NCBI GenBank assembly: GCA_949152475.1
Contig: OX424561.1
Span: 43,800,802 to 43,864,801 of the forward strand
From: Terebella lapidaria
Taxonomy: Eukaryota; Annelida; Polychaeta; Terebellida; Terebellidae
Reading direction: 5' to 3'
Length of the DNA: 64,000 nt
This document shows positions 1 to 25,521 of this stretch, piece by piece (position 1 is the stretch's first letter; every line of letters begins with the position of its first letter). Under the pieces are notes generated by a model, which did not search any database, was not told the origin of the DNA, and worked only from the letters and a program-made list of their open reading frames with translations. The translations under genes were made by a program, and so were the position numbers.

Positions 1-365
1 CTTTGGAGATTTGGTCAAGCCCTTCGAAAAAATGTTATGTTACATCATGATGACCCAATGTCCTAAGCTTAGGAAATTGGGTCAAGCCCTTCGAAAAGTT
101 TGTATGTTACATTATGATGACCCAATGCTCTAAGCTTAGGAGATTGGGTCAAGCCCTCCAAAAAGTTTTAGTTTTACAATATGATGACCCAATGCCCTAA
201 GCTTAGGAGATTGGGTCAAGCCCTTCGAAAAGTGTTTATGTTACATAGTGATGACCCAATGCCCTAAGCTTAGGAGATTGGATCAAGACCTTCGAAAGGT
301 TTTTGCATTTAATTTACATCATAATGACCCAATGCCCTAATCTTCGGAGCCTGGGTCAAGCCATG
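1..365. repeat. 66-bp tandem repeat (about 5.5 copies)
   Basis: A unit of about 66-68 bp containing 'GGGTCAAGCCCTTCGAAAAG', 'ATGATGACCCAATGCCCTAA' and the palindrome CTAAGCTTAG recurs five to six times with a few mismatches each. The first copy is cut by the window edge. GGGTCA and TGACCC give each unit an internal dyad. No coding potential is seen. Confidence 0.9.
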
Positions 366-835
366 TATGTGTGTGTGGTTTGGTGTTGTGACATTACTTC
401 ACTATTAAACTCGTTACTTTGTGAATTTAATGAAGTTCATGGTTTGATAGTCAGTTTCTGATTATTGACGATCATGCTTCGGTTAGCTTCTTGACAACTG
501 TCTAGTAACGATGTTAATAATATATGAAATTGTATGGGATATTGCACTATATCATGTTATGACAAAATCGTTATAAATGCATTAGAGTGGCATTTCAAAC
601 TTAAATTTTGAATGGGATACCCATGTGATGCTTAGCGAATTGCCATGCTACATTCAAGACCCATTCACCCTCCCCCAACCCCTCGGTTTATGTTATTCAG
701 GACACGCACGTGTCACGTGCTGTTATCATTGTTGGTGTAGATAAATATGCGCATGTATATAATCTTTCTGGAAGATAAAAAATATAGGTACACGTAGGTC
801 TGTCATAATGATTGTATCAGACCAGACCATTGTAT
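366..835. other. No gene recognised; 5' flank of the PLE array
   Basis: Unique-looking AT-rich sequence with no supported ORF. It includes a CACGTG palindrome near 714. It ends abruptly where sequence identical to the interior of the Penelope element ORF1 begins (CACTGGGGTGTTAACC), marking the 5' truncation point of the first unit. Confidence 0.5.
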
Positions 836-1756
836 CACTGGGGTGTTAACCGTCATGGTCAAGGCTCTAACTTCTTTGGCCGCCTCCTAATGGACCTAAA
901 ACGTGCCAACTCTCCTACTAACAATCCTAAACCCTCTCGCTCTTCACCTCCATCTTCAAATAACACCCCTCCCTCTGTGTCCACTTCTAACCGCTTCCAA
1001 CTCCTTGATACCCTCTCTAACCCTCCTTGTCTATCATCATCTGATGATTGGCCACCTCTCTCTCGCTCTTCTCCTGATAACCGCCTTAGTGCCACGCCCA
1101 AACGGCGTCCGCGCTCTCCTTCTTCTCCTGAACTCTCACCCTCCTCTCTACCCAAAGGCAAACGCACTCGCTTTGTCTCTCCTAAAAACTCTCCTAACAC
1201 CACTTTCCATGTCTCTCCTTCCACTATCAGAGGACCCAAAACTCTTTGGGCCCTTCCTAAACTAACCTCCTCCACTGTCATCCTCGGCTCTTCTAACCTT
1301 TCTCGCATCACCAAATCCCCTGTCAGTGATATCCAAGTTGTGTCTTATCCTGGAGCTTTGTTCAACCATCTAAGAATGATGTTCACGGCCTGTAAAAAAT
1401 CATTTGATGCCCCCCAAAACTTAATCTTAAGTGTAGGCCTGAACAATCGAAGCTCCAAACCAAGTGTTACTTCAATTCCAGAACTGAGGAATATGCTCAG
1501 CAGTGCTTTCCGAATCTTCCCCCACTCCAAAATTCTCATTCCAAAAATTAACTACTCAGACAATCTTCCGTCTGTAGAGAAACGCAACTTGGATATGATT
1601 AACAGGGCTTTGGATGACATGAGTTCACGTTTCAGCAATCTCACAGTTGTTAAACAGTTGGATCCAATCAAGTTTTCTACACAGACAGATAACATTCATT
1701 GGACTGAACAAACGGCCAATGAAATGTTGAAATTCTGGCTCAGTCATTTAAACTAA
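836..1756 (+). pseudogene. PLE ORF1 fragment: end of NADAR domain, linker and SGNH hydrolase domain
   Basis: The element-derived frame begins at the HWGVNRHGQGSNFFGRLL block, the last conserved block of the NADAR fold, and runs to the normal ORF1 stop. It holds the whole Ser/Pro/Arg-rich linker and the SGNH-type domain, with LGSSN as block I, VSYPGA as the oxyanion glycine block, SVGLNN as block III and TDNIHW as the Asp-x-x-His block. The frame stays open into upstream flank, but that part is unrelated to the element. With no promoter or native start, this is a truncated copy although its frame is intact. Confidence 0.8.
1747..1753 (+). promoter_or_regulatory. Predicted -1 ribosomal frameshift site T_TTA_AAC (unit 1)
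   Basis: The heptamer TTTAAAC lies exactly in the ORF1 zero frame as T TTA AAC and is followed directly by the ORF1 TAA. ORF2 is open in the -1 frame from 1723 through this site. The heptamer matches the X_XXY_YYZ consensus and is the one coronaviruses use. A weak 4-bp stem (GAGT/ACTC) begins 13 nt downstream, but a strong stimulatory structure is not obvious. Confidence 0.7.
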
Positions 1757-4035
1757 ATCATTCTGAGAGTCCACCGAACTCCAGTACGACTAATAATGTT
1801 GTAAACCTTTCCAAATTTACACTTTCGGACACACAAATCGCTCTTCTAAATCGTGGTTTGACATTTGTTCCCACACCCAAAATAACATTGGATCCAATTA
1901 AACAAGCTGTGCAAGATTTTGGTAGAAAACTCAAACTTCAAAATTATTTTTCTCACCGTCCAAATTCATTCACAAATAGATCAAAATTCACTCCAAAATC
2001 TACCTGGACTCCACCGAGTTCCATGATTGACAAGCCCGTTTTAGATTGCATTTCGGCAATATCTAAGGAAATTGAAAACTTGAAAATTCAACCAGAAACC
2101 AAAAACCTAACAAAAATGGAATATAAAACTATAAAGAATTTACAAAATAACGTAGACTTGGTAATTAAAAAAGCAGATAAAGGTAGTGCAGTCGTAATTA
2201 TGGATAGGCAAAATTATATTAATGAAGGCTTTCGTCAATTATACAATCCAGCTCATTACAGAGAAATTGACACTCCTCTTTACCTAGAAAATTCAGCAAA
2301 AATAACAAAAATTTTAAAAGGATTACGCAATTCTGGATGCCTTTCTGAAAAAGTATTCCAATTTCTTTTACCACCAGAACGCCCTCGTCAAAGAAGATTT
2401 TATATGCTACCTAAAATTCATAAACCCAAAGACTCCTGGCCAATTCCAAATGTAATGCCTCCAGGGCGCCCAATTGTTTCGGACTGCAGCAGTGAATCTG
2501 AAAAAGTAGCTATGTATATTGATTCATATATAAAAGATCAAGCAAATAAGCATCCGTCATATATAAAAAACATGTATGACTTTTTAGATAAAGTTAGAGG
2601 GCTTGAACTAGATCCAAATTCTTTACTAATCACTTTAGATGTTGAAAGTATGTATACTAATATAAATCATGAAGAAGGTATCCAAGCAATTAAAAATGCA
2701 TTCCCGACTTTGGCAAACAATGAACTATTCAAAGGTATAATAGAATTATTGGAAATTTCACTTAAATGTAATGACTTTGAATTTGACGGTAAGACATTCC
2801 TACAAGTTTCAGGCACAGCCATGGGTCAGAAATATGCACCTCATTATGCAGATATTTATATGGCTGAATTTGAAAAGCAAGCTTTACAAAAGTGTCCATT
2901 CAAACCAGATTGCTATTATAGGTATTTAGATGACATTTTCCTCATTTGGCCACATGGCATTTCCAAATTTCACCAGTTTCTCGAAATTTTCAATTCTCAT
3001 AGGGCATCAATCAACTTCAAAGCTGAAATTAGTACTGATTCAGTTAATTTTTTGGATACTACTTTGTTCAGGAGCAAAGAAAACACATTAGAAGCAAAAG
3101 TTTTCTTCAAGCCAACGGATACTCATCAGTTGTTGCATAAGCTCTCTTTTCATCCAAAACACACTTATAAAGGACTAATCAAGTCCCAAGTTTTTCGATT
3201 TTTCCAAATTTGCTCATATCCAGATGATGTTGAATCAGCTTGTCAAATATTATTCAAGGCACTTTCGAAACGTAACTATTCAAAACGTTGGCTTCGCAAA
3301 ATCAAGAATGAAACATTGAGAATTTTGAACAGTGAGGAAAGACTAGGTGCTGATTTTCAATTGCCCACTTCCAGCTCGTCTGGCTCAAAACCTTGTAATT
3401 CTAGACAATGTCAGACATGTCATTTAGTTCCAAATTGTCAAAATTTCTCGGGATCAGTTTTTGAACAGACCTACTCAATCAACTCAGCTTTGGATTGCAA
3501 CTCAGAAAATATAATTTATCTATACACTTGTAAGCTTTGCGAAAAACAATATGTAGGTGAAACCGGTAAATCACTCAAATTCAGAAACAATCGTCACCGT
3601 GCTGCAATAACTAGCTGCAATGAGGAAAATGCATTATACAGTCATCTATCTAAATTTCACAGCAAAACTGAATTTTCCATTGAATGTTTTTCTCTTTTAC
3701 CAATTGAACAGGTTTCCGATCTTGGTGATGAACTTTTAAACAAACAATGGCGACTTGAAAGGGAATATTGTTGGATTGATACTCTAGGCACTTTCGAACC
3801 TCATGGCCTCAACGTTCAAAAATTTACAAAGTATGACCCTTTGAACAAAAGTAAAAATAAATTCGACATGGTGTATATAGTACCCTTCTCAAAAACAGGT
3901 ACTCTTTCAGCCCAAATTGTTAAAAAGCATATGAAACAACTCAACAAAAATACTGATGGTGATATTAAAATAGCAACAGCTTACAAGAAGCATCAAAATC
4001 TTAAAGAACTTTTAGTCAGAAGCAAACTTAAATAA
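1753..4035 (+). CDS. PLE ORF2: Penelope-type reverse transcriptase with GIY-YIG endonuclease (unit 1)
   Basis: The RT copies element RNA into DNA and the GIY-YIG domain nicks the target. The start given is the first -1 frame codon after the slippery site, because the first in-frame ATG lies well inside the conserved N-terminus (LLNRGLTFVPTPK). Counted from the TTG of that block, the order is IKKADKGSAVVIMD (about 104-116), FYMLPKIHKP (181-190), motif A with Asp261 in LDVESMYTNI, motif B GTAMGQKYAPHYAD, motif C YLDD (356-359), the PLE thumb KPTDTHQLLH, a Cys-rich segment CNSRQCQTC, and the GIY-YIG core IIYLYTC...YVGETG (552-570) with FRNNRH and LEREYCWID...GLN. All RT and nuclease motifs look intact. 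Alternative: translation by reinitiation rather than frameshifting. Confidence 0.88.
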   Translation, partial: LNHSESPPNSSTTNNVVNLSKFTLSDTQIALLNRGLTFVPTPKITLDPIKQAVQDFGRKLKLQNYFSHRPNSFTNRSKFTPKSTWTPPSSMIDKPVLDCISAISKEIENLKIQPETKNLTKMEYKTIKNLQNNVDLVIKKADKGSAVVIMDRQNYINEGFRQLYNPAHYREIDTPLYLENSAKITKILKGLRNSGCLSEKVFQFLLPPERPRQRRFYMLPKIHKPKDSWPIPNVMPPGRPIVSDCSSESEKVAMYIDSYIKDQANKHPSYIKNMYDFLDKVRGLELDPNSLLITLDVESMYTNINHEEGIQAIKNAFPTLANNELFKGIIELLEISLKCNDFEFDGKTFLQVSGTAMGQKYAPHYADIYMAEFEKQALQKCPFKPDCYYRYLDDIFLIWPHGISKFHQFLEIFNSHRASINFKAEISTDSVNFLDTTLFRSKENTLEAKVFFKPTDTHQLLHKLSFHPKHTYKGLIKSQVFRFFQICSYPDDVESACQILFKALSKRNYSKRWLRKIKNETLRILNSEERLGADFQLPTSSSSGSKPCNSRQCQTCHLVPNCQNFSGSVFEQTYSINSALDCNSENIIYLYTCKLCEKQYVGETGKSLKFRNNRHRAAITSCNEENALYSHLSKFHSKTEFSIECFSLLPIEQVSDLGDELLNKQWRLEREYCWIDTLGTFEPHGLNVQKFTKYDPLNKSKNKFDMVYIVPFSKTGTLSAQIVKKHMKQLNKNTDGDIKIATAYKKHQNLKELLVRSKLK

Positions 4036-4445
4036 TCCAACAAAATTTGTTCAATGTCGCTCATTGAATTTTTATTGCTGTTTTATGTTATGTGTTACTC
4101 TTACAATTATCTTGTGCCAGTGCATTTTTTATACTCTCCAAAACATACTTAGCCCGTGCCTAGCATATTGTAAGAGTCAAAACACATTTATAAATATTTT
4201 ATGAATATTTTGTTTTTCAGTTCATTTTAGTACATTTTGTTTTTATTTCATCGCATTTTATTTGAAGTCTCCTGAAGCAATGCAAGTCAATTTGACACAT
4301 CTTCAGTTTCAAAAAAACAATTTCATGCCTAATAAAATCTCTGCCTAAGAATCTATTGCTGGAAAGCACCGCAGTAATACCATTTTGAAAATACTTCCTT
4401 TCAGCATACTTCAAAAAATATAACTTCAAACGCTAATTATGTTTA

Positions 4446-4622
4446 TCAATCAACTAACTGCTAATTGTTTTACTCAGTGTCAGATACGCATATAAGAAAC
4501 AATTAAATTCACTAACTGTTAATTATCTATACTCAACATATGTCACTCTTCTTGGCAAACTGTTCTGGAAACTGCTAATTGATTTGCTCAACCATTGGTA
4601 AACTGTTAATTGATTTACTCAA
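4446..4622 (+). promoter_or_regulatory. Iterated motif upstream of the PLE TATA box
   Basis: A motif close to AACTGYTAATTGWTTTRCTCA occurs four times at irregular spacing just upstream of the TATA box. Such iteration ahead of a promoter could be a set of binding sites. The same block recurs in unit 3. Its role is inferred from position only. Confidence 0.4.
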
Positions 4623-4655
4623 ACAAAATTGACATTGGCACAAGCCAATATTTCC

Positions 4656-4663
4656 TATAAATA
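4656..4663 (+). promoter_or_regulatory. TATA box of PLE unit 2
   Basis: TATAAATA stands in an AT-poor local context (CCTATAAATACTGC), about 30 bp before TCTCTAGACTTCCGC, which would put transcription start immediately ahead of the hammerhead-like motif. PLE promoters are known to lie in the 5' (pseudo-LTR) region. The call is inference from sequence and spacing. Confidence 0.5.
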
Positions 4664-4693
4664 CTGCAACCACAGTAGGTTCTCTAGACTTCC

Positions 4694-4731
4694 GCACTTG
4701 ACAAAGGATTCAACTCCGAAACCGGTCGTGC
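4694..4731 (+). ncRNA. Hammerhead-like ribozyme motif (unit 2)
   Basis: Reading 5' to 3': stem I strand GCAC, core TTGACAA, stem II GGA-TTCAAC-TCC, GAAA, minimal stem III C-CG-G, then TC and the returning stem I strand GTGC. This is the type I hammerhead order with predicted cleavage after GGTC. Compared with the CUGANGA core, the two changes (C3 to U, G8 to A) fall on bases that pair with each other, so pairing is kept. There is one unpaired A at the base of stem II. PLEs are known to carry minimal hammerheads with very short stem III. Activity is uncertain. Confidence 0.5.
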
Positions 4732-4748
4732 AACAGGCAGAGTACATT

Positions 4749-4833
4749 GTGAGTAACCTCTTTTATATTGTTTTGTATTATTTTGTTGTGTTTTAGATAC
4801 TGGTCAGATTATTGACCATATCTTTGCATTCAG
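4749..4833 (+). other. Probable 5'-UTR intron of PLE unit 2
   Basis: A strong donor (ATT|GTGAGTAA) is followed by T-rich sequence and two possible acceptors: TTTTAG at 4791-4796 and the better spaced TTGCATTCAG ending at 4833. An 85-nt intron between promoter and ORF1 resembles the short intron described in Drosophila Penelope. No transcript evidence is available here. Confidence 0.4.
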
Positions 4834-4964
4834 GTTTCTTCAAACGTTGTGTTCTCATTTTATACAATTGTTTTTATTGTTCATAATTTTATCCTTTGGT
4901 TTTATCATCCAAATCAAACACGTTCTGGTTTTAATACTTTCAAAATTAATTGCTGAAACGTATC

Positions 4965-6674
4965 ATGGCTCTTTCTAAACCTCCTCACTTCCGTTCTTTT
5001 TACACTCTTCTTCAATGTTTTCACCACCTGTCACTAATGCTCCAGCAGTCTCAAGGCCAAGTCACCAGGGCTTTCAGTAAAAAACAACAACACCTGGATG
5101 ACTTCATTAAACCTGCTTGTTCTGGTCCCCTAATCAAACAAAAAATCTCCAAAATTAATCAAAATTGGGTACAAAACGTGACCAAACATTTGGTGGAACA
5201 CTATGAGAGCTCAATTCAAAACCTTTTGGCCCACATTTCCTCTTTAGGTTTATCAGATTCGGACATTGCAAATTCGGTAGCTCTCGTCATTCAGCAGGCT
5301 AAATCTCATTTCGGCAAAAAACTTCAGGCTTCCACCATCCAGAAATTCAAAACCTCTACTCTTCCAAATTCCCCTATTCCAAATTCTAACTCTCAATCAA
5401 AACCTCAGACTTGCGAGGTAAAAGGTCACAAACACCCACTTAGTAATTTCTTCCCATGTAATATATCCTATCGTGGTATGAGATTCCCTAGCCTTGAGCA
5501 CATCTATCAGTATCACAAAGCCCGGTACCATGACTGTCAACACCTAGCCAATCGGATCCTCAGGGCTCCCCATGCAGGAGTGGCCAAACGTTTGGCTAGT
5601 GAAATTCCTAGCCTGTCCCCATTCTGGCATAAAAGTAAAAATGGAATCATGCGTCAACTTCTTCAAGTTAAGTTTAATTCTTGCAAATTGTTCCGTGACA
5701 CTCTGATGGGTCTTCCTGAAGGGTGTCACATTGTCCATCCAGTTCCTGACAGCCACTGGGGTGTTAACCGTCATGGTCAAGGCTCTAACTTCTTTGGCCG
5801 CCTCCTAATGGACCTAAAACGTGCCAACTCTCCTACTAACAATCCTAAACCCTCTCGCTCTTCACCTCCATCTTCAAATAACACCCCTCCCTCTGTGTCC
5901 ACTTCTAACCGCTTCCAACTCCTTGATACCCTCTCTAACCCTCCTTGTCTATCATCATCTGATGATTGGCCACCTCTCTCTCGCTCTTCTCCTGATAACC
6001 GCCTTAGTGCCACGCCCAAACGGCGTCCGCGCTCTCCTTCTTCTCCTGAACTCTCACCCTCCTCTCTACCCAAAGGCAAACGCACTCGCTTTGTCTCTCC
6101 TAAAAACTCTCCTAACACCACTTTCCATGTCTCTCCTTCCACTATCAGAGGACCCAAAACTTTTTGGGCCCTTCCTAAACTAACCTCCTCCACTGTCATC
6201 CTCGGCTCTTCTAACCTTTCTCGCATCACCAAATCCCCTGTCAGTGATATCCAAGTTGTGTCTTATCCTGGAGCTTTGTTCAACCATCTAAGAATGATGT
6301 TCACGGCCTGTAAAAAATCATTTGATGCCCCCCAAAACTTAATCTTAAGTGTAGGCCTGAACAATCGAAGCTCCAAACCAAGTGTTACTTCAATTCCAGA
6401 ACTGAGGAATATGCTCAGCAGTGCTTTCCGAATCTTCCCCCACTCCAAAATTCTCATTCCAAAAATTAACTACTCAGACAATCTTCCGTCTGTAGAGAAA
6501 CGCAACTTGGATATGATTAACAGGGCTTTGGATGACATGAGTTCACGTTTCAGCAATCTCACAGTTGTTAAACAGTTGGATCCAATCAAGTTTTCTACAC
6601 AGACAGATAACATTCATTGGACTGAACAAACGGCCAATGAAATGTTGAAATTCTGGCTCAGTCATTTAAACTAA
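4965..6674 (+). CDS. PLE ORF1: NADAR domain - Ser/Pro/Arg-rich linker - SGNH hydrolase domain (569 aa)
   Basis: The start is the first in-frame ATG, with a good context (ATCATGG). Residues 1-150 are unassigned. Residues about 153-285 form a NADAR (YbiA/DUF1768) domain: LSNFFP (159-164), YRGMRFPSLEH (to His179), YQYHKA (181-186), a conserved Trp221, MRQLLQVKF (229-237), DSHWG (262-266) and NFFGRLLM (275-282). NADAR enzymes cleave N-glycosidic bonds, and members remove ADP-ribose from guanine in nucleic acids. Residues 285-400 are a basic Ser/Pro-rich linker with KRRPRS (possible nuclear signal). Residues about 407-569 match an SGNH hydrolase: Ser416 in GSSN, Gly436, GLNN, and Asp548/His551 in DNIHW. 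Esterase domains occur in ORF1 of CR1-like LINEs and in rotifer Terminons. The NADAR fusion is the unusual part, and what it acts on is unknown. Confidence 0.85.
   Translation: MALSKPPHFRSFYTLLQCFHHLSLMLQQSQGQVTRAFSKKQQHLDDFIKPACSGPLIKQKISKINQNWVQNVTKHLVEHYESSIQNLLAHISSLGLSDSDIANSVALVIQQAKSHFGKKLQASTIQKFKTSTLPNSPIPNSNSQSKPQTCEVKGHKHPLSNFFPCNISYRGMRFPSLEHIYQYHKARYHDCQHLANRILRAPHAGVAKRLASEIPSLSPFWHKSKNGIMRQLLQVKFNSCKLFRDTLMGLPEGCHIVHPVPDSHWGVNRHGQGSNFFGRLLMDLKRANSPTNNPKPSRSSPPSSNNTPPSVSTSNRFQLLDTLSNPPCLSSSDDWPPLSRSSPDNRLSATPKRRPRSPSSPELSPSSLPKGKRTRFVSPKNSPNTTFHVSPSTIRGPKTFWALPKLTSSTVILGSSNLSRITKSPVSDIQVVSYPGALFNHLRMMFTACKKSFDAPQNLILSVGLNNRSSKPSVTSIPELRNMLSSAFRIFPHSKILIPKINYSDNLPSVEKRNLDMINRALDDMSSRFSNLTVVKQLDPIKFSTQTDNIHWTEQTANEMLKFWLSHLN
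6665..6671 (+). promoter_or_regulatory. Predicted -1 frameshift site T_TTA_AAC (unit 2)
   Basis: Same heptamer, frame and adjacency to the ORF1 TAA as in unit 1. In this complete unit, slippage would fuse 569 ORF1 residues to 760 ORF2 residues. Confidence 0.7.
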
Positions 6675-8953
6675 ATCATTCTGAGAGTCCACCGAACTCC
6701 AGTACGACTAATAATGTTGTAAACCTTTCCAAATTTACACTTTCGGACACACAAATCGCTCTTCTAAATCGTGGTTTGACATTTGTTCCCACACCCAAAA
6801 TAACATTGGATCCAATTAAACAAGCTGTGCAAGATTTTGGTAGAAAACTCAAACTTCAAAATTATTTTTCTCACCGTCCAAATTCATTCACAAATAGATC
6901 AAAATTCACTCCAAAATCTACCTGGACTCCACCGAGTTCCATGATTGACAAGCCCGTTTTAGATTGCATTTCGGCAATATCTAAGGAAATTGAAAACTTG
7001 AAAATTCAACCAGAAACCAAAAACCTAACAAAAATGGAATATAAAACTATAAAGAATTTACAAAATAACGTAGACTTGGTAATTAAAAAAGCAGATAAAG
7101 GTAGTGCAGTCGTAATTATGGATAGGCAAAATTATATTAATGAAGGCTTTCGTCAATTATACAATCCAGCTCATTACAGAGAAATTGACACTCCTCTTTA
7201 CCTAGAAAATTCAGCAAAAATAACAAAAATTTTAAAAGGATTACGCAATTCTGGATGCCTTTCTGAAAAAGTATTCCAATTTCTTTTACCACCAGAACGC
7301 CCTCGTCAAAGAAGATTTTATATGCTACCTAAAATTCATAAACCCAAAGACTCCTGGCCAATTCCAAATGTAATGCCTCCAGGGCGCCCAATTGTTTCGG
7401 ACTGCAGCAGTGAATCTGAAAAAGTAGCTATGTATATTGATTCATATATAAAAGATCAAGCAAATAAGCATCCGTCATATATAAAAAACACGTATGACTT
7501 TTTAGATAAAGTTAGAGGGCTTGAACTAGATCCAAATTCTTTACTAATCACTTTAGATGTTGAAAGTATGTATACTAATATAAATCATGAAGAAGGTATC
7601 CAAGCAATTAAAAATGCATTCCCGACTTTGGCAAACAATGAACTATTCAAAGGTATAATAGAATTATTGGAAATTTCACTTAAATGTAATGACTTTGAAT
7701 TTGACGGTAAGACATTCCTACAAGTTTCAGGCACAGCCATGGGTCAGAAATATGCACCTCATTATGCAGATATTTATATGGCTGAATTTGAAAAGCAAGC
7801 TTTACAAAAGTGTCCATTCAAACCAGATTGCTATTATAGGTATTTAGATGACATTTTCCTCATTTGGCCACATGGCATTTCCAAATTTCACCAGTTTCTC
7901 GAAATTTTCAATTCTCATAGGGCATCAATCAACTTCAAAGCTGAAATTAGTACTGATTCAGTTAATTTTTTGGATACTACTTTGTTCAGGAGCAAAGAAA
8001 ACACATTAGAAGCAAAAGTTTTCTTCAAGCCAACGGATACTCATCAGTTGTTGCATAAGCTCTCTTTTCATCCAAAACACACTTATAAAGGACTAATCAA
8101 GTCCCAAGTTTTTCGATTTTTCCAAATTTGCTCATATCCAGATGATGTTGAATCAGCTTGTCAAATATTATTCAAGGCACTTTCGAAACGTAACTATTCA
8201 AAACGTTGGCTTCGCAAAATCAAGAATGAAACATTGAGAATTTTGAACAGTGAGGAAAGACTAGGTGCTGATTTTCAATTGCCCACTTCCAGCTCATCTG
8301 GCTCAAAACCTTGTAATTCTAGACAATGTCAGACATGTCATTTAGTTCCAAATTGTCAAAATTTCTCGGGATCAGTTTTTGAACAGACCTACTCAATCAA
8401 CTCAGCTTTGGATTGCAACTCAGAAAATATAATTTATCTATACACTTGTAAGCTTTGCGAAAAACAATATGTAGGTGAAACCGGTAAATCACTCAAATTC
8501 AGAAACAATCGTCACCGTGCTGCAATAACTAGCTGCAATGAGGAAAATGCATTATACAGTCATCTATCTAAATTTCACAGCAAAACTGAATTTTCCATTG
8601 AATGTTTTTCTCTTTTACCAATTGAACAGGTTTCCGATCTTGGTGATGAACTTTTAAACAAACAATGGCGACTTGAAAGGGAATATTGTTGGATTGATAC
8701 TCTAGGCACTTTCGAACCTCATGGCCTCAACGTTCAAAAATTTACAAAGTATGACCCTTTGAACAAAAGTAAAAATAAATTCGACATGGTGTATATAGTA
8801 CCCTTCTCAAAAACAGGTACTCTTTCAGCCCAAATTGTTAAAAAGCATATGAAACAACTCAACAAAAATACTGATGGTGATATTAAAATAGCAACAGCTT
8901 ACAAGAAGCATCAAAATCTTAAAGAACTTTTAGTCAGAAGCAAACTTAAATAA
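6671..8953 (+). CDS. PLE ORF2: Penelope-type RT + GIY-YIG endonuclease (unit 2)
   Basis: Differs from the unit 1 protein by one residue seen (Thr for Met just before YDFLDKV). All RT motifs (LDVESMYTNI, GTAMGQKYAPH, YRYLDDIF), the Cys-rich linker and the GIY-YIG nuclease (IIYLYTCKLC, YVGETG, FRNNRH, LEREYCWID, GLNV) are present. The first 35 residues after the slippery site include LSDTQIALLNRGLTFVPTPK, the conserved start of PLE reverse transcriptases, which supports translation from the frameshift rather than from an internal ATG. The element falls in the endonuclease-bearing PLE group (Penelope/Poseidon/Neptune); which clade is not resolved by eye. Confidence 0.9.
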   Translation, partial: LNHSESPPNSSTTNNVVNLSKFTLSDTQIALLNRGLTFVPTPKITLDPIKQAVQDFGRKLKLQNYFSHRPNSFTNRSKFTPKSTWTPPSSMIDKPVLDCISAISKEIENLKIQPETKNLTKMEYKTIKNLQNNVDLVIKKADKGSAVVIMDRQNYINEGFRQLYNPAHYREIDTPLYLENSAKITKILKGLRNSGCLSEKVFQFLLPPERPRQRRFYMLPKIHKPKDSWPIPNVMPPGRPIVSDCSSESEKVAMYIDSYIKDQANKHPSYIKNTYDFLDKVRGLELDPNSLLITLDVESMYTNINHEEGIQAIKNAFPTLANNELFKGIIELLEISLKCNDFEFDGKTFLQVSGTAMGQKYAPHYADIYMAEFEKQALQKCPFKPDCYYRYLDDIFLIWPHGISKFHQFLEIFNSHRASINFKAEISTDSVNFLDTTLFRSKENTLEAKVFFKPTDTHQLLHKLSFHPKHTYKGLIKSQVFRFFQICSYPDDVESACQILFKALSKRNYSKRWLRKIKNETLRILNSEERLGADFQLPTSSSSGSKPCNSRQCQTCHLVPNCQNFSGSVFEQTYSINSALDCNSENIIYLYTCKLCEKQYVGETGKSLKFRNNRHRAAITSCNEENALYSHLSKFHSKTEFSIECFSLLPIEQVSDLGDELLNKQWRLEREYCWIDTLGTFEPHGLNVQKFTKYDPLNKSKNKFDMVYIVPFSKTGTLSAQIVKKHMKQLNKNTDGDIKIATAYKKHQNLKELLVRSKLK

Positions 8954-9573
8954 TCCAACAAAATTTGTTCAATGTCGCTCATTGAATTTTTATTGCTGTT
9001 TTATGTTATGTGTTACTCTTACAATTATCTTGTGCCAGTGCATTTTTTATACTCTCCAAAACATACTTAGCCCGTGCCTAGCATATTGTAAGAGTCAAAA
9101 CACATTTATAAATATTTTATGAATATTTTGTTTTTCAGTTCATTTTAGTACATTTTGTTTTTATTTCATCGCATTTTATTTGAAGTCTCCTGAAGCAATG
9201 CAAGTCAATTTGACACATCTTCAGTTTCAAAAAAACAATTTCATGCCTAATAAAATCTCTGCCTAAGAATCTATTGCTGGAAAGCACCGCAGTAATACCA
9301 TTTTGAAAATACTTCCTTTCAGCATACTTCAAAAAATATAACTTCAAACGCTAATTATGTTTATCAATCAACTAACTGCTAATTGTTTTACTCAGTGTCA
9401 GATACGCATATAAGAAACAATTAAATTCACTAACTGTTAATTATCTATACTCAACATATGTCACTCTTCTTGGCAAACTGTTCTGGAAACTGCTAATTGA
9501 TTTGCTCAACCATTGGTAAACTGTTAATTGATTTACTCAAACAAAATTGACATTGGCACAAGCCAATATTTCC

Positions 9574-9581
9574 TATAAATA
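9574..9581 (+). promoter_or_regulatory. TATA box of PLE unit 3
   Basis: Same TATAAATA and surroundings as in unit 2. It lies in the 5' region directly downstream of unit 2, so it could also serve as the right-hand pseudo-LTR of that copy. Confidence 0.45.
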
Positions 9582-9611
9582 CTGCAACCACAGTAGGTTC
9601 TCTAGACTTCC

Positions 9612-9649
9612 GCACTTGACAAAGGATTCAACTCCGAAACCGGTCGTGC
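9612..9649 (+). ncRNA. Hammerhead-like ribozyme motif (unit 3)
   Basis: Identical to the motif of unit 2 (GCAC stem I, TTGACAA, GGA/TCC stem II, GAAA, C-G stem III, TC, GTGC). With two copies flanking unit 2, self-cleavage would release a unit-length RNA from a tandem transcript. Confidence 0.5.
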
Positions 9650-9666
9650 AACAGGCAGAGTACATT

Positions 9667-9751
9667 GTGAGTAACCTCTTTTATATTGTTTTGTATTATT
9701 TTGTTGTGTTTTAGATACTGGTCAGATTATTGACCATATCTTTGCATTCAG
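9667..9751 (+). other. Probable 5'-UTR intron of PLE unit 3
   Basis: Same GTGAGTAA donor and TTGCATTCAG acceptor as in unit 2, at the same offset from the ribozyme-like motif. Confidence 0.35.
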
Positions 9752-9882
9752 GTTTCTTCAAACGTTGTGTTCTCATTTTATACAATTGTTTTTATTGTTC
9801 ATAATTTTATCCTTTGGTTTTATCATCCAAATCAAACACGTTCTGGTTTTAATACTTTCAAAATTAATTGCTGAAACGTATC

Positions 9883-11586
9883 ATGGCTCTTTCTAAACCT
9901 CCTCACTTCCGTTCTTTTTACACTCTTCTTCAATGTTTTCACCACCTGTCACTAATGCTCCAGCAGTCTCAAGGCCAAGTCACCAGGGCTTTCAGTAAAA
10001 AACAACAACACCTGGATGACTTCATTAAACCTGCTTGTTCTGGTCCCCTAATCAAACAAAAAATCTCCAAAATTAATCAAAATTGGGTACAAAACGTGAC
10101 CAAACATTTGGTGGAACACTATGAGAGCTCAATTCAAAACCTTTTGGCCCACATTTCCTCTTTAGGTTTATCAGATTCGGACATTGCAAATTCGGTAGCT
10201 CTCGTCATTCAGCAGGCTAAATCTCATTTCGGCAAAAAACTTCAGGCTTCCACCATCCAGAAATTCAAAACCTCTACTCTTCCAAATTCCCCTATTCCAA
10301 ATTCTAACTCTCAATCAAAACCTCAGACTTGCGAGGTAAAAGGTCACAAACACCCACTTAGTAATTTCTTCCCATGTAATATATCCTATCGTGGTATGAG
10401 ATTCCCTAGCCTTGAGCACATCTATCAGTATCACAAAGCCCGGTACCATGACTGTCAACACCTAGCCAATCGGATCCTCAGGGCTCCCCATGCAGGAGTG
10501 GCCAAACGTTTGGCTAGTGAAATTCCTAGCCTGTCCCCATTCTGGCATAAAAGTAAAAATGGAATCATGCGTCAACTTCTTCAAGTTAAGTTTAATTCTT
10601 GCAAATTGTTCCGTGACACTCTGATGGGTCTTCCTGAAGGGTGTCACATTGTCCATCCAGTTCCTGACAGCCACTGGGGTGTTAACCGTCATGGTCAAGG
10701 CTCTAACTTCTTTGGCCGCCTCCTAATGGACCTAAAACGTGCCAACTCTCCTACTAACAATCCTAAACCCTCTCGCTCTTCACCTCCATCTTCAAATAAC
10801 ACCCCTCCCTCCACTTCTAACCGCTTCCAACTCCTTGATACCCTCTCTAACCCTCCTTGTCTATCATCATCTGATGACTGGCCACCTCTCTCTCGCTCTT
10901 CTCCTGATAACCGCCTTAGTGCCACGCCCAAACGGCGTCCGCGCTCTCCTTCTTCTCCTGAACTCTCACCCTCCTCTCTACCCAAAGGCAAACGCACTCG
11001 CTTTGTCTCTCCTAAAAACTCTCCTAACACCACTTTCCATGTCTCTCCTTCCACTATCAGAGGACCCAAAACTCTTTGGGCCCTTCCTAAACTAACCTCC
11101 TCCACTGTCATCCTCGGCTCTTCTAACCTTTCTCGCATCACCAAATCCCCTGTCAGTGATATCCAAGTTGTGTCTTATCCTGGAGCTTTGTTCAACCATC
11201 TAAGAATGATGTTCACGGCCTGTAAAAAATCATTTGATGCCCCCCAAAACTTAATCTTAAGTGTAGGCCTGAACAATCGAAGCTCCAAACCAAGTGTTAC
11301 TTCAATTCCAGAACTGAGGAATATGCTCAGCAGTGCTTTCCGAATCTTCCCCCACTCCAAAATTCTCATTCCAAAAATTAACTACTCAGACAATCTTCCG
11401 TCTGTAGAGAAACGCAACTTGGATATGATTAACAGGGCTTTGGATGACATGAGTTCACGTTTCAGCAATCTCACAGTTGTTAAACAGTTGGATCCAATCA
11501 AGTTTTCTACACAGACAGATAACATTCATTGGACTGAACAAACGGCCAATGAAATGTTGAAATTCTGGCTCAGTCATTTAAACTAA
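9883..11586 (+). CDS. PLE ORF1: NADAR + linker + SGNH domain (unit 3, 567 aa)
   Basis: Same ATG choice and domain order as unit 2. The linker lacks two residues (Val-Ser after NNTPPS) through a 6-bp difference inside a Ser/Pro-rich, repeat-prone stretch. All NADAR blocks (LSNFFP, PSLEH, DSHWG, NFFGRLLM) and SGNH blocks (GSSN, SYPGA, GLNN, DNIHW) are kept. A second open copy of such a specialised ORF argues for recent purifying selection or very recent duplication; the near identity favours recency. Confidence 0.82.
   Translation: MALSKPPHFRSFYTLLQCFHHLSLMLQQSQGQVTRAFSKKQQHLDDFIKPACSGPLIKQKISKINQNWVQNVTKHLVEHYESSIQNLLAHISSLGLSDSDIANSVALVIQQAKSHFGKKLQASTIQKFKTSTLPNSPIPNSNSQSKPQTCEVKGHKHPLSNFFPCNISYRGMRFPSLEHIYQYHKARYHDCQHLANRILRAPHAGVAKRLASEIPSLSPFWHKSKNGIMRQLLQVKFNSCKLFRDTLMGLPEGCHIVHPVPDSHWGVNRHGQGSNFFGRLLMDLKRANSPTNNPKPSRSSPPSSNNTPPSTSNRFQLLDTLSNPPCLSSSDDWPPLSRSSPDNRLSATPKRRPRSPSSPELSPSSLPKGKRTRFVSPKNSPNTTFHVSPSTIRGPKTLWALPKLTSSTVILGSSNLSRITKSPVSDIQVVSYPGALFNHLRMMFTACKKSFDAPQNLILSVGLNNRSSKPSVTSIPELRNMLSSAFRIFPHSKILIPKINYSDNLPSVEKRNLDMINRALDDMSSRFSNLTVVKQLDPIKFSTQTDNIHWTEQTANEMLKFWLSHLN
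11577..11583 (+). promoter_or_regulatory. Predicted -1 frameshift site T_TTA_AAC (unit 3)
   Basis: Conserved heptamer immediately before the ORF1 stop, in the same relative frames as the other units. Confidence 0.65.
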
Positions 11587-12947
11587 ATCATTCTGAGAGT
11601 CCACCGAACTCCAGTACGACTAATAATGTTGTAAACCTTTCCAAATTTACACTTTCGGACACACAAATCGCTCTTCTAAATCGTGGTTTGACATTTGTTC
11701 CCACACCCAAAATAACATTGGATCCAATTAAACAAGCTGTGCAAGATTTTGGTAGAAAACTCAAACTTCAAAATTATTTTTCTCACCGTCCAAATTCATT
11801 CACAAATAGATCAAAATTCACTCCAAAATCTACCTGGACTCCACCGAGTTCCATGATTGACGAGCCCGTTTTAGATTGCATTTCGGCAATATCTAAGGAA
11901 ATTGAAAACTTGAAAATTCAACCAGAAACCAAAAACCTAACAAAAATGGAATATAAAACTATAAAGAATTTACAAAATAACGTAGACTTGGTAATTAAAA
12001 AAGCAGATAAAGGTAGTGCAGTCGTAATTATGGATAGGCAAAATTATATTAATGAAGGCTTTCGTCAATTATACAATCCAGCTCATTACAGAGAAATTGA
12101 CACTCCTCTTTACCTAGAAAATTCAGCAAAAATAACAAAAATTTTAAAAGGATTACGCAATTCTGGATGCCTTTCTGAAAAAGTATTCCAATTTCTTTTA
12201 CCACCAGAACGCCCTCGTCAAAGAAGATTTTATATGCTACCTAAAATTCATAAACCCAAAGACTCCTGGCCAATTCCAAATGTAATGCCTCCAGGGCGCC
12301 CAATTGTTTCGGACTGCAGCAGTGAATCTGAAAAAGTAGCTATGTATATTGATTCATATATAAAAGATCAAGCAAATAAGCATCCGTCATATATAAAAAA
12401 CACGTATGACTTTTTAGATAAAGTTAGAGGGCTTGAACTAGATCCAAATTCTTTACTAATCACTTTAGATGTTGAAAGTATGTATACTAATATAAATCAT
12501 GAAGAAGGTATCCAAGCAATTAAAAATGCATTCCCGACTTTGGCAAACAATGAACTATTCAAAGGTATAATAGAATTATTGGAAATTTCACTTAAATGTA
12601 ATGACTTTGAATTTGACGGTAAGACATTCCTACAAGTTTCAGGCACAGCCATGGGTCAGAAATATGCACCTCATTATGCAGATATTTATATGGCTGAATT
12701 TGAAAAGCAAGCTTTACAAAAGTGTCCATTCAAACCAGATTGCTATTATAGGTATTTAGATGACATTTTCCTCATTTGGCCACATGGCATTTCCAAATTT
12801 CACCAGTTTCTCGAAATTTTCAATTCTCATAGGGCATCAATCAACTTCTTGGATCCAATCAAGTTTTCTACACAGACAGATAACATTCATTGGACTGAAC
12901 AAACGGCCAATGAAATGTTGAAATTCTGGCTCAGTCATTTAAACTAA
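11583..12947 (+). pseudogene. Truncated PLE ORF2 fused in frame to an ORF1 tail (units 3/4 junction)
   Basis: The RT is normal through LDVESMYTNI, GTAMGQKYAPH and YLDDIF to HRASINF. There the sequence jumps to LDPIKFSTQTDNIHW, the C-terminal end of ORF1 from the next copy, and keeps the frame to the ORF1 stop. The product would be an RT palm without thumb or nuclease, carrying the last SGNH block. It is the by-product of a 5'-truncated insertion or recombination and unlikely to have a function, though the in-frame join is noteworthy. Confidence 0.75.
12938..12944 (+). promoter_or_regulatory. Predicted -1 frameshift site T_TTA_AAC (unit 4)
   Basis: Conserved heptamer before the ORF1-tail stop. 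In this copy the upstream zero frame is the truncated RT of unit 3. Confidence 0.55.
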
Positions 12948-15226
12948 ATCATTCTGAGAGTCCACCGAACTCCAGTACGACTAATAATGTTGTAAACCTT
13001 TCCAAATTTACACTTTCGGACACACAAATCGCTCTTCTAAATCGTGGTTTGACATTTGTTCCCACACCCAAAATAACATTGGATCCAATTAAACAAGCTG
13101 TGCAAGATTTTGGTAGAAAACTCAAACTTCAAAATTATTTTTCTCACCGTCCAAATTCATTCACAAATAGATCAAAATTCACTCCAAAATCTACCTGGAC
13201 TCCACCCAGTTCCATGATTGACAAGCCTGTTTTAGATTGCATTTCGGCAATATCTAAAGAAATTGAAAATCTGAAAATTCAACCAGAAACCAAAAACCTA
13301 ACGAAAATGGAGTATAAAACTATAAAGGATTTACAAAATAACGTAGACTTGGTAATCAAAAAAGCAGATAAAGGTAGTGCAGTCGTAATTATGGATAGGC
13401 AAAATTATATTAATGAAGGCCTTCGTCAATTATACAATCCAGCTCATTACAGAGAAATTGACACTCCTCTTTACCTAGAAAATTCAGAAAAAATAACAAA
13501 AATTTTAAAAGGATTACGCAGTTCTGGATGCCTTTCTGAAAAAGTATTCCAATTTCTTTTACCACCAGAACGCCCTCGTCAAAGAAGATTTTATATGCTA
13601 CCTAAAATTCATAAACCCAAAGACTCCTGGCCAATTCCAAATGTAATGCCTCCAGGGCGCCCAATTGTTTCTGACTGCAGCAGTGAATCTGAAAATGTAG
13701 CTATGTATATTGATTCATATATAAAAGATCAAGCAAACAAGCATCCGTCATATATCAAAAACACGTATGACTTTTTAGATAAAGTTAGAGGGCTTGAACT
13801 AGATCCAAATTCTTTACTAATCACTTTAGATGTTGAAAGTATGTATACTAATATAAATCATGAAGAAGGTATCCAAGCAATTAAAAATGCATTCCCGACT
13901 CTGAAAAACAATGAACTATTCAAAGGTATAATAGAATTATTGGAAATTTCACTTAAATGTAATGACTTTGAATTTGACGGTAAGACATTCCTACAAGTTT
14001 CAGGCACAGCCATGGGTCAGAAATATGCACCTCATTATGCAGATATTTATATGGCTGAATTTGAAAAGCAAGCTTTACAAAAGTGTCCATTCAAACCAGA
14101 TTGCTATTATAGGTATTTAGATGACATTTTCCTCATTTGGCCACATGGCATTTCCAAATTTTACCAGTTTCTCGAAATTTTCAATTCTCATAGGGCATCA
14201 ATCAAATTCAAAGCTGAAATTAGTACTGATTCAGTTAATTTTCTGGATACTACTTTGTTCAGGAGCAAAGAAAACACATTAGAAGCAAAAGTTTTCTTCA
14301 AACCAACGGATACTCATCAGTTGCTGCATAAGCTCTCTTTTCATCCAAAGCACACTTATAAAGGACTAATCAAGTCCCAAGTTTTTCGATTTTTCCAAAT
14401 TTGCTCGTACCCAGATGATGTTGAATCAGCTTGCCAAACATTATTCAAGGCACTTTCGAAACGTAACTATTCAAAACGTTGGCTTTGCAAAATAAAGAAT
14501 GAAACATTGAGAATTCTAAACAGTGAGGAAAGGCTAGGTGCTGATTTTCAATTGCCCACTTCCAGCTCATCTGGCTCAAAACCCTGTAATTCTAGACTAT
14601 GTCAAACATGTCATTTAGTTCCAAATTGTCAAAATTTCTCAGGATCAGTTTTTGAACAAACCTACTCAATCAACTCAGCTTTGGATTGCAACTCAGAAAA
14701 TATAATTTATCTATACACTTGTAAGCTTTGCGAAAAACAATATGTAGGTGAAACCGGTAAATCACTCAAATTCAGAAACAATCGTCACCGTGCTGCAATA
14801 ACTAGCTGCAATGAGGAAAATGCATTATACAGTCATCTATCTAAATTTCACAGCAAAACTGAATTTTCCATCGAATGTTTTTCTCTTTTACCAATTGAAC
14901 AGGTTTCCGATCTTAGTGATGAACTTTTAAACAAACAATGGCGACTTGAAAGGGAATATTGTTGGATTGATACTCTAGGCACTTTCGAACCTCATGGCCT
15001 CAACGTTCAAAAATTTACAAAGTATGACCCTCTGAACAAAAGTAAAAATAAATTCGACCTGGTGTATATAGTACCCTTCTCAAAAACAGGTGCTCTTTCG
15101 GCCCAAATTGTTAAAAAGCATATGAAACAACTCAACAAAAATACTGATGGTGATATTAAAATAGCAACAGCTTACAAGAAGCATCAAAATCTTAAAGAAC
15201 TTTTAGTCAGAAGCAAACTTAAATAA
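12944..15226 (+). CDS. PLE ORF2: Penelope-type RT + GIY-YIG endonuclease (unit 4, second subfamily)
   Basis: Open over the full length, with every RT motif (LDVESMYTNI, GTAMGQKYAPH, YRYLDDIF), the KPTDTHQLLH thumb, the Cys segment (CNSRLCQTC) and the nuclease residues intact. It differs from unit 2 at about twenty residues. That an older-subfamily ORF2 is still open suggests it was inserted relatively recently by an active element. Without its own ORF1 N-terminus or promoter it is probably not autonomous. Confidence 0.85.
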   Translation, partial: LNHSESPPNSSTTNNVVNLSKFTLSDTQIALLNRGLTFVPTPKITLDPIKQAVQDFGRKLKLQNYFSHRPNSFTNRSKFTPKSTWTPPSSMIDKPVLDCISAISKEIENLKIQPETKNLTKMEYKTIKDLQNNVDLVIKKADKGSAVVIMDRQNYINEGLRQLYNPAHYREIDTPLYLENSEKITKILKGLRSSGCLSEKVFQFLLPPERPRQRRFYMLPKIHKPKDSWPIPNVMPPGRPIVSDCSSESENVAMYIDSYIKDQANKHPSYIKNTYDFLDKVRGLELDPNSLLITLDVESMYTNINHEEGIQAIKNAFPTLKNNELFKGIIELLEISLKCNDFEFDGKTFLQVSGTAMGQKYAPHYADIYMAEFEKQALQKCPFKPDCYYRYLDDIFLIWPHGISKFYQFLEIFNSHRASIKFKAEISTDSVNFLDTTLFRSKENTLEAKVFFKPTDTHQLLHKLSFHPKHTYKGLIKSQVFRFFQICSYPDDVESACQTLFKALSKRNYSKRWLCKIKNETLRILNSEERLGADFQLPTSSSSGSKPCNSRLCQTCHLVPNCQNFSGSVFEQTYSINSALDCNSENIIYLYTCKLCEKQYVGETGKSLKFRNNRHRAAITSCNEENALYSHLSKFHSKTEFSIECFSLLPIEQVSDLSDELLNKQWRLEREYCWIDTLGTFEPHGLNVQKFTKYDPLNKSKNKFDLVYIVPFSKTGALSAQIVKKHMKQLNKNTDGDIKIATAYKKHQNLKELLVRSKLK

Positions 15227-15340
15227 TCCAACAAAATTTGTTCAATGTCGCTCATTGAATTTTTATTGCTTTTACTGTTTCATGTTATGTGTTACTCTTA
15301 CAATTATCTTGTGCCAGTGCATTTTTTATACTCTCCAAAA

Positions 15341-15377
15341 CATACATACATACATACATACATACATACATACATAC
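15341..15377 (+). repeat. (CATA)n tail of PLE unit 4
   Basis: About nine CATA repeats follow the conserved 3' end CTCTCCAAAA. The same tail, shorter, ends units 5 and 6, showing the natural 3' terminus of the second subfamily; units 1 and 2 keep only CATAC before the next unit. Confidence 0.85.
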
Positions 15378-15871
15378 TAACCTCCTCCACTGTCGTCCTC
15401 GGCTCTTCTAACCTCTCTCGCATCACCAAATCCCCCGTCGGTGATATCCAAGTTGTGTCTTATCCTGGAGCTTTGTTCAACCATCTCAGAATGATGTTCA
15501 CGGCCTGTAAAAAAACATTTGATGCCCCCAAAAACTTAATCTTAAGTGTAGGCCTGAACAATCGAAGCTCCAAACCAAGTGTTACTTCAATTCCAGAGCT
15601 GAGGAATATGCTCAGCAGTGCTTTCCGAATCTTCCCCCACTCCAAAATTCTTATTCCAAAAATTAACTACTCAGACAATCTTCCGTCTGTAGAGAAACGC
15701 AACTTGGATATGATTAACAGGGCTTTAGATGACATGAGTTCAGGTTTCAGCAATCTCACAGTTGTTAAACAATTGGATCCAATCAGGTTCTCTACACAGC
15801 CAGATAACATTCATTGGACTGAACAAACGGCCAATGAAATGTTGAAATGCTGGCTCAGTCATTTAAACTAA
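15378..15871 (+). pseudogene. PLE ORF1 fragment: SGNH domain only (unit 5)
   Basis: Holds LTSSTVVLGSSNLSR through DNIHW to the normal stop, that is, almost exactly the SGNH module without NADAR domain or linker. The catalytic Ser, Gly, Asn, Asp and His blocks remain. No native start. Confidence 0.75.
15862..15868 (+). promoter_or_regulatory. Predicted -1 frameshift site T_TTA_AAC (unit 5)
   Basis: The heptamer is kept although the ORF2 downstream is broken. In this copy alone, a substitution creates an ATG in the ORF2 frame 15 bp upstream of the heptamer. Confidence 0.55.
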
Positions 15872-18146: not shown

Positions 18147-18271
18147 TCCAACAAAATTTGTTCAATGTCGCTCATTGAATTTCTATTGCTATTTTATGTT
18201 ATGTGTTACTCTTACAATTATCTTGTGCCAGTGCATTTTTTATTCTCTCCAAAACATACATACATACATAC

Positions 18272-18840
18272 AAAACCTGCAGACAATTTTGTATGGAGCG
18301 ATACATACTGGTGGGATAGCATTGTCATCGTCCGATATGTCCGAGATGATTGCAGAAGTTCCCGGTCGGTCACTGCCCCTGCTTTGTTCAAGAAAGGGCC
18401 GGTAATTCCCGCTCATCCAAATCTTCCACATCAGCTGCAGATTGACCAATTAAACAGATATATGGGTTGAACTGAAAAGCCTGGCAATGAATTTTGGCTT
18501 AATTTTATTAGTTTTTTGTGATAGAATTAAAACTCATATTCTAATTTGAAACATAAAAGCTCGATATTTAAATGTATATCGCAAGTCAAATGCACGACCT
18601 AACGAAGGAAATGCAATATTGATGAGTGATGACAATTGATTCAAGGTAAACTTATACATAGAGATCCTATTTACCGAATCAGCAAATTTCCCCTTTCATC
18701 AACAAAACTGGATTTAACCGTTGATATTATCGCTTTGGGTGGTTCATTCGTATGTGAAGCAAAGATGGTAGAGAGACATCCTTGGGTGAAGGTCGGGTTG
18801 ACACTTATTCAGGTTTGCGCTCCGAAGCGCGCCAACGACT
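18272..18840. other. Non-PLE segment A (duplicated flank)
   Basis: Unrelated to the element. It is nearly identical to the start of the segment after unit 6 (21732 onward), from AAAACCTGCAGACAATTTTG to GAAGCGCGCCAACGACT. It contains no supported gene. Relative to the other copy it lacks about 422 bp at its right end, including the first part of the next ORF1 fragment. Confidence 0.7.
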
Positions 18841-19378
18841 TCCCACTATCAGAGGGCCCTAAACTCTTTGGGCCCTTCCTAAACTAACCTCCACCACTGT
18901 CGTCCTCGGCTCTTCTAACCTCTCTCGCATCACCATATCCCCCGTCAATGATATCCAAGTTGTGTCTTATCCTGGAGCTTTGTTCAAACATCTCAGAATG
19001 ATGTTCACGGCCTGTAAAAAGTCATTTGATGCCCCCAAAAACTTAATCTTAAGTGTTGGCCAGAACAATCGAAGCTCCAAACCAAGTATTACTTCAATTC
19101 CAGAGCTGAGGAATATGCTCAGCAGTGCTTTCCGAATCTTCCCCCACTCCAAAATTCTTAATCCAAAAATTAACTACTCAGACAATCTTCCGTCTGTAGA
19201 GAAACGCAACTTGGATATGATTCACATGGCTTTGGATGACATGAGTTCACGTTTCAGTAATCTCACAGTTGTTAAACAGTTGGATCCAATAAAGTTCTCT
19301 ACACAACCAGATAACATTCATTGGACTGAACAAACGGCCAATGAAATGTTGAAATTCTGGCTCAGTCATTTAAACTAA
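18841..19378 (+). pseudogene. PLE ORF1 fragment: SGNH domain (unit 6)
   Basis: Carries the end of the linker and the SGNH module to the usual stop; interrupted near its left end. Compared with units 1-3 the GLNN block reads GQNN, shared with unit 7. Confidence 0.7.
19369..19375 (+). promoter_or_regulatory. Predicted -1 frameshift site T_TTA_AAC (unit 6)
   Basis: Conserved heptamer before the ORF1 stop. Confidence 0.5.
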
Positions 19379-21562: not shown

Positions 21563-21731
21563 CATCAAAATCTTAAAGAACTTTTAGTCAGAAGCAAACT
21601 TAAATAATCCAACAAAATTTGTTCAATGTCGCTCATTGAATTATATTGCTGTTTTATGTTATGTGTTACTCTTACAATTATCTTGTGCCAGTGCATTTTT
21701 TATACTCTCCAAAACATACATACATACATAC

Positions 21732-25516: not shown

Positions 25517-25521
25517 AAAGA

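Follow-up and report, generated by a model that had tools for sequence, protein, structure and literature searches.

Endonuclease-bearing Penelope-like elements (PLEs) are recognised by a reverse transcriptase (RT) with a C-terminal GIY-YIG domain and a cysteine cluster, by head-to-tail copies, by 5′ truncation and by a microsatellite tail at the 3′ end, while a hammerhead ribozyme in the pseudo-long terminal repeat is not present in every PLE. A 64,000-nucleotide stretch of Terebella lapidaria (GCA_949152475.1, contig OX424561.1, positions 43,800,802–43,864,801 of the forward strand; hereafter the window) contains an element that shares the RT, the GIY-YIG domain with its cysteine cluster, the head-to-tail copies with missing 5′ parts and the microsatellite tail, but differs from these PLEs in that its first open reading frame (ORF1) encodes NADAR and SGNH domains, its second (ORF2) overlaps ORF1 in the −1 frame at a slippery heptamer, and it has no Rfam hammerhead match. 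Sequence comparisons support its classification as an endonuclease-bearing PLE with NADAR and SGNH domains in ORF1. Taken together, the observations point tentatively, at a little short of an even chance, to a recently active PLE that would use a gag-pol-like −1 frameshift and whose ORF1 protein (ORF1p) would strip ADP-ribose from guanine through its NADAR domain.

Each of the two ORF1 domains has precedents in mobile elements. A GDSL/SGNH esterase is also present among the extra ORFs of the Terminons and Athena PLEs of bdelloid rotifers (PMC5408684, PMC6431247); unlike the Terebella element, these PLEs are giant and endonuclease-deficient, the GDSL protein is one of many ORFs, and the available text of these reports mentions no NADAR. 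The zebrafish ZfL2-1 element likewise has an SGNH esterase in its first ORF, whose structure (4c1b) is the best structure match to the SGNH region described here; in contrast, it is a long interspersed nuclear element (LINE) with a coiled coil, and NADAR does not figure in the available sections of its description (PMC3905857). NADAR is already in print for the pol of an Ectocarpus Gypsy element and for ORF1 of an oyster Tx1 LINE (PMC12477816), which resemble the Terebella element in placing NADAR inside a retrotransposon protein but belong to other element classes. It is also found in RNA-virus polyproteins (PMC9503650), and its occurrence in Gypsy, Tx1 and RNA viruses suggests a shared pressure. 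Phage NADARs of the T4 gp30.3 type have a histidine at the third catalytic position, as does the element's domain, but are standalone proteins. What NADARs do outside DarT operons, and in eukaryotes generally, animals among them, is described as unclear (PMC11125620). The first-pass annotation, made from the window sequence alone, knew of no described PLE with this fusion: this stands for PLEs, in that no PLE with NADAR was found in the open-licence literature searched (subscription papers, preprints and Repbase notes being outside its scope), whereas NADAR in retrotransposons as such is already published in the Gypsy and Tx1 cases. The same literature yielded no report of a PLE with −1 frameshifting or a slippery site.

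The two-ORF layout given by the first-pass annotation holds: in the complete copy of the element, ORF1 (4965–6674, + strand) encodes 569 amino acids, comprising a helical-looking N-terminal region, NADAR, a serine/proline-rich basic linker and SGNH, and ORF2 (6641–8953, +) spans 770 codons from stop to stop. The −1 relation of the two frames, the slippery site and the array of copies go beyond that annotation. The RT core of ORF2 (residues 289–433; 7505–7939) matches Pfam RVT_1 at E 3.6e-11, and its catalytic D306, D403 and D404 are kept in all 19 aligned ORF2 sequences. The C-terminal GIY-YIG endonuclease domain (residues 597–687; 8429–8701) is preceded by the cysteine cluster C558, C563 and C566; its E of 0.002 lies under the Pfam cut-off for the window copy, but with an E limit of 0.01, 12 of the 19 aligned sequences match GIY-YIG, the best at 2.3e-7. 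Tyr599, Tyr610, Gly612, Arg621 and His625 are kept in 19/19 and Glu681 in 18/19, which bears out the earlier description of ORF2 as an endonuclease-bearing PLE protein. The ORF2 relatives considered are the best 120 of 2155, out of 8000 scored candidates, and their records bear no element names; among solved structures, the ORF2 profile found no match at 0.01.

ORF1 was searched against 5.8 billion proteins, giving 23 matches: P0003, a 99% copy of the window protein; P0025, which was set apart; and 21 ORF1 relatives, in which the N-terminal and SGNH regions are complete or largely so, except that P0010 lacks the former and P0015 and P0023 break within the latter. P0003 was left out of ORF1 alignments A1 and A3, and P0025 out of A3. 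The family, including the window protein, holds 22 sequences, 14 of them with NADAR, 13 of which are relatives beyond the window protein. The N-terminal domain (residues 10–130; 4992–5354), defined from the alignments, is conserved but of unassigned fold, and is present also in members that lack NADAR.

The NADAR domain, previously placed at residues 153–285, matches Pfam PF08719 over residues 155–286 (5427–5822) at E 5.8e-16, above the curated cut-off, and the family profile matches the solved structures of YbiA (2b3w, 2.4e-19) and NADAR 8bau (4.4e-16). These E-values and the conservation across the family rule out chance motif similarity as the source of the assignment. The ADP-ribose contacts of the Phytophthora nicotianae NADAR include E43, K50, W89, E125, D130 and W133 (PMC11543638), to which E178, K185, W221, H258, D262 and W265 of ORF1 align. 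Of these residues, all but D262 are invariant in the 14 NADAR-bearing rows, and the D262 column is Asp in 12; H258 shares its column with both E125 of P. nicotianae and a histidine of T4 gp30.3. Mean pairwise identity among seven close members is 57.7% for NADAR, 57.3% for the N-terminal domain and 47.9% for SGNH, and among 12 members (P0010 and P0015 excluded) 44.5%, 40.5% and 39.7% respectively; by this measure the conservation of NADAR equals or exceeds that of the N-terminal domain and surpasses that of SGNH.

The SGNH/GDSL hydrolase domain (residues 407–569; 6183–6671) shows all four blocks of its class in the window protein, with Ser416, Gly436, Asn466 and His551, together with Asp548, although block I reads GSSN and not GDSN. 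In the window protein this region has no Pfam match of its own; with an E limit of 0.5, 18 of the 22 sequences in the family match PF13472 (GDSL), the best at 4.2e-5, and the family profile finds 4c1b as its nearest solved SGNH relative, at 1.2e-7, confirming the domain reported earlier. The serine is missing in 4 of the 22 members and in 3 of the 14 that carry NADAR (P0011, P0012 and P0015), of which P0011 and P0012 also lack the histidine and P0015 is truncated; 13 NADAR-bearing rows have letters at the two remaining positions, and of these 8 show Asp in the Asp548 column and 11 show His in the His551 column. Since SGNH catalytic residues decay while those of NADAR stay invariant, lipase activity looks optional and the NADAR site does not, as far as the alignments can tell.

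The overlap of ORF1 and ORF2 measures 34 bases and contains the heptamer TTTAAAC (6665–6671, +), phased T TTA AAC in the zero frame and followed directly by TAA (6672–6674). Slippery heptamers were defined as X XXY YYZ, where YYY is AAA or TTT and Z is not G; TTTAAAC is the only phased one in ORF1, 831 of 20000 codon shuffles place a phased one among the final 12 codons, and TTTAAAC is found in all seven copies of the array. In relatives, conservation of the heptamer was read at the protein level. Leu-Asn forms the exact end of ORF1 in 15 of the 20 members with an intact C-terminus (P0015 and P0023, whose C-termini are broken, are excluded) and lies at most 11 residues from the end in 19 of the 20. 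Of the 120 listed ORF2 relatives, 50 contain the anchor used to align their N-termini; 43 of these have 10 or more residues ahead of it, and 24 of the 43 show FK[LR] there. Conservation of FKL and of Leu-Asn amounts to two readings, TTT AAA C and TTA AAC, of the one heptamer.

Six ORF1/ORF2 pairs were then compared as paired proteins, with alternative starts allowed. For the window pair, P0008/P0032 and P0010/P0037, the −1 frame is the sole one in which both peptides can be encoded together, the shared stretch measuring 6, 7 and 7 codons respectively; the latter two pairs come from contigs of equal size, and co-encoding forces TTTAAA(C/T) beside the stop. The other three pairs show no visible overlap, the called ORF2 start lying too far downstream, and 21 of 480 cross pairs were compatible. 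A gag-pol-like −1 ribosomal frameshift is thus the likely means by which ORF1 is joined to ORF2, judging from these sequences.

In the proposed mechanism, the main translation product would be ORF1p, consisting of the N-terminal domain, NADAR, the basic linker and the LINE-type SGNH domain, and a −1 slip at UUUAAAC, directly ahead of the ORF1 stop, would yield a minor ORF1–ORF2 fusion carrying RT and GIY-YIG. ORF1p is probably coat-like and would escort the element RNA, and the fusion would bring RT and endonuclease into the same particle. The NADAR domain, an N-glycosidase with E178, K185 and a phage-type histidine, would most likely remove ADP-ribose from guanines, either in the element RNA or cDNA or in host nucleic acid close by, which would allow templates bearing the mark to be copied all the same. 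The architecture, its occurrence across a family, the conserved residues and the phased heptamer with its conservation at the protein level are seen directly, while frameshifting, the role in a ribonucleoprotein particle (RNP), enzymatic activity and substrate are inferred. ADP-ribose clearance is consistent with the conserved catalytic residues and with published biochemistry, in which RNA guanosine was freed of ADP-ribose by every NADAR tested (PMC11833690). A NADAR carried by a mobile element, with catalytic residues that are kept better than in the adjoining domain, offers a concrete role that can be tested, in which ADP-ribosylation of nucleic acid would stand in the way of retrotransposition. 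If the mechanism is correct, PLEs gain a mode of expression that resembles gag-pol and relies on a slippery site, and the element may be able to reverse a chemical modification with which cells could oppose it. A wider proposition, which we consider possible but rather unlikely, is that an animal-type PLE lineage combines −1 frameshifting with a coat carrying a nucleic-acid de-ADP-ribosylase and, together with the Gypsy, Tx1 and RNA-virus captures, reveals an undescribed guanine ADP-ribosylation pressure on invertebrate retroelements.

The enzymatic role has to be weighed against the possibility that NADAR serves a coat-like ORF1p as a structural or RNA-binding module, performs no chemistry and is conserved for folding and RNP assembly, which we judge unlikely, if less so than the other alternatives. 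Two observations count against de-ADP-ribosylation here. The YbiA-type catalytic glutamate is absent, H258 standing in its place (the neighbouring position 257 is Glu in P0017 only), so that activity is not assured; and 8 of the 22 family members lack NADAR, which makes the domain dispensable. A module without chemistry would accommodate the replaced glutamate, as well as the loss of the SGNH serine in three NADAR-bearing members, which indicates that ORF1 domains can persist without chemistry; moreover, the NADAR protein SNA-3 of nematodes serves RNA metabolism, and there NADAR mutations also reduce the protein level (PMC9303266). It accounts less well for the invariance of E178, K185, W221 and W265 in 14/14 members in which the SGNH serine decays. 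A histidine at the third catalytic position is, moreover, found in phage NADARs (gp30.3), and the characterised phage NADAR is active on guanosine-ADP-ribose (PMC11125620, PMC11543638).

If NADAR does act as an enzyme, its targets could instead be small NAD-derived molecules, such as ADP-ribose derivatives or signals, so that it would counter an NAD-based alarm and not marks on nucleic acid. Such a role has been proposed for viral NADARs, chiefly those of phages (PMC9503650), YbiA acts on riboflavin intermediates (PMC11543638), and the NCBIfam riboflavin N-glycosidase model gives a match at 5.9e-17 that stays under its cut-off. That NADAR is part of a coat-like protein produced in cis with RT suggests, on the other hand, a substrate inside the RNP, and macromolecular targets are favoured for the polyprotein NADARs of eukaryotic RNA viruses (PMC9503650); small-molecule targets are rated as distinctly unlikely, and guanine-linked ADP-ribose remains the preferred substrate.

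The frameshift also has points against it, which bear on the alternative that ORF2 is produced by stop–restart (reinitiation) or from a separate transcript and that something else maintains TTTAAAC. RNA folding beyond the heptamer gives only a weak structure: a candidate stimulatory stem begins 8 nucleotides past the heptamer (6680–6747, +; arms 6680–6688 and 6739–6747), folding gives z of −1.18 and −1.55, and at the latter 13 of 200 shuffles fold equally well. One ORF1, P0024, lacks the Leu-Asn end, and 19 of the 43 ORF2 N-termini lack FK[LR], 15 of these having 22 residues or fewer ahead of the anchor. Overlapping stops serve reinitiation in other retroelements, and the weak structure would suit it. 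Reinitiation would nevertheless have to contend with an ORF2 frame whose first ATG does not come before residue 101, so that an ATG start would leave out the blocks Asn-Leu-Ser (residues 28–30) and GLxFVPTP (45–52), which are conserved in relatives, and with an overlap that conserves both readings of TTTAAAC. Production of ORF2 by either of these routes is considered improbable, and the −1 frameshift is retained. As a separate observation, the FK[LR] misses with at least 23 upstream residues are P0080, P0095, P0126 and P0133; by eye, P0080 and P0133 show GKL and P0126 KKL near the FKL position, which GGGAAAC or AAAAAAC would encode, so that a swap of the slippery sequence is possible in these three, while P0095 does not fit.

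The reading of the NADAR ORF as a gene of the host or of a bacterium that lies beside a PLE by chance or through misassembly, for which one could cite the standalone NADAR genes common in phages (295 records) and found also in bacteria, is refuted by the 14 distinct NADAR-bearing ORF1 sequences and is vanishingly improbable, a single reading frame uniting NADAR with the N-terminal and SGNH domains in array copies 2 and 3, NADAR standing ahead of the SGNH region in the 13 further members, and four ORF1 matches sitting on contigs exactly equal in size to those of listed ORF2 matches. The equal-size matches (4 observed, compared with 0–3 at 40 shifted offsets) are supporting evidence only; linkage of ORF1 to RT is direct in the window and indirect in the rest of the family.

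A NADAR tree of 28 rows places the 14 PLE NADARs on one side of a branch with support 97/97. T4 gp30.3 falls on the PLE side, on a very long branch and with unsure placement, and the other side holds P0025, YbiA, 8bau, a bacterial row and viral-contig rows (the alignment excludes L004, L005 (same as L003), L010, L014 and P0146, and the tree also vir_L007). On a tree that was built from the N-terminal and SGNH columns and is midpoint-rooted only, NADAR presence takes two changes, for example two losses from a NADAR-bearing ancestor; the simplest history is a single capture followed by losses. P0025 looks, from its sequence, like a Tx1-type LINE ORF1 with NADAR and has, unlike the PLE proteins, a glutamate at the third catalytic position. 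One origin common to PLE and Tx1 LINE NADARs is unsupported, as P0025 lies outside the PLE group in a tree that contains no animal host NADAR genes.

Further searches did not enlarge the family. A second profile search added no members and returned two bacterial NADARs only. The ORF1 alignment profile matched 13 viral-contig loci; none of 14 viral-contig or bacterial NADAR loci matches RT at E 1e-3, and a search of viral contigs with the ORF2 alignment found no relative. L014 was considered as the contig of P0010 and rejected, its ORFs showing it to be a normal bacterial contig that carries a piece of a NADAR. Phage_30_3 matches 2 of the 22 family members (best 0.008), scattered Pfam families match one member each at E up to 0.5, and the match of the family profile to the BAR-domain chain 9uhd (0.014) was taken as chance.

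The element forms seven head-to-tail copies between 836 and 25394, with a full period of about 4.9 kb. Copy 2 is complete, with ORF1 and ORF2 both open, and is followed by a 3′ untranslated region (8954–9069, +), the counterpart of which ends in an (ACAT)n tail in copies 4–6; the tail of copy 4 is also reported by TRF. Five of the seven copies lack the 5′ part, namely copy 1 (836–4151, +), which lacks everything before mid-ORF1, and copies 4–7 (12849–25394, +; starts at 12849, 15376, 18843 and 22643). Copy 3 (8956–12848, +) has a full 5′ part and an ORF2 that is cut off and fused to the ORF1 end of copy 4, a junction that possibly arose by truncation or by a between-copy deletion. Copies 1–3 are 99.8–100% identical across their shared parts, and copies 4–7 are 94.8–98.1% identical to copy 2; from the near-identical copies we infer that the element was recently active. 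ORF2 of copy 4 differs from that of copy 2 at 29 synonymous and 14 non-synonymous codons with zero stops, a pattern that fits descent via active, selected elements. ORF2 of copies 5–7 is gapped relative to copy 2, with stop changes numbering one in copy 5, two in copy 6 and none in copy 7.

Copies 5 and 6 (18149–18300 and 21610–21760) end in identical (ACAT)n followed by identical flank (AAAACCTGCAGACAATTTTG...), which suggests segmental duplication rather than separate insertions. Immediately beyond copy 7 lies a 124-base inverted piece of ORF1 (25400–25523, −). Rfam gave no hammerhead ribozyme match in 8940–9900 (to E 10) or in 1–20000 (to E 5). Upstream of ORF1, at 4694–4731 and 9612–9649, there is a degenerate hammerhead-like core (TTGACAA ... 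GAAA between GCAC and GTGC), which has no Rfam match and folds no better than shuffles; it appears to hold what we take to be a paired C3-to-U and G8-to-A change, on an assumed core numbering.

Elsewhere in the window, the GC-rich segment 33071–36200 (−) contains degenerate ORFs, one of which matches RVT_1 at 5e-14; another, for which Pfam gave no match, resembles a tyrosine recombinase by eye, and the segment suggests, on such inspection, a decayed DIRS-like element. An ORF at 26711–27187 (−) matches DUF7869 (1.4e-50), a domain of unknown function. Satellite-like arrays lie at 31205–32327, 42416–46620 and 1–362, with a 362-base unit at 99% matches, a 134-base unit at two places and a 67-base unit at the window start.

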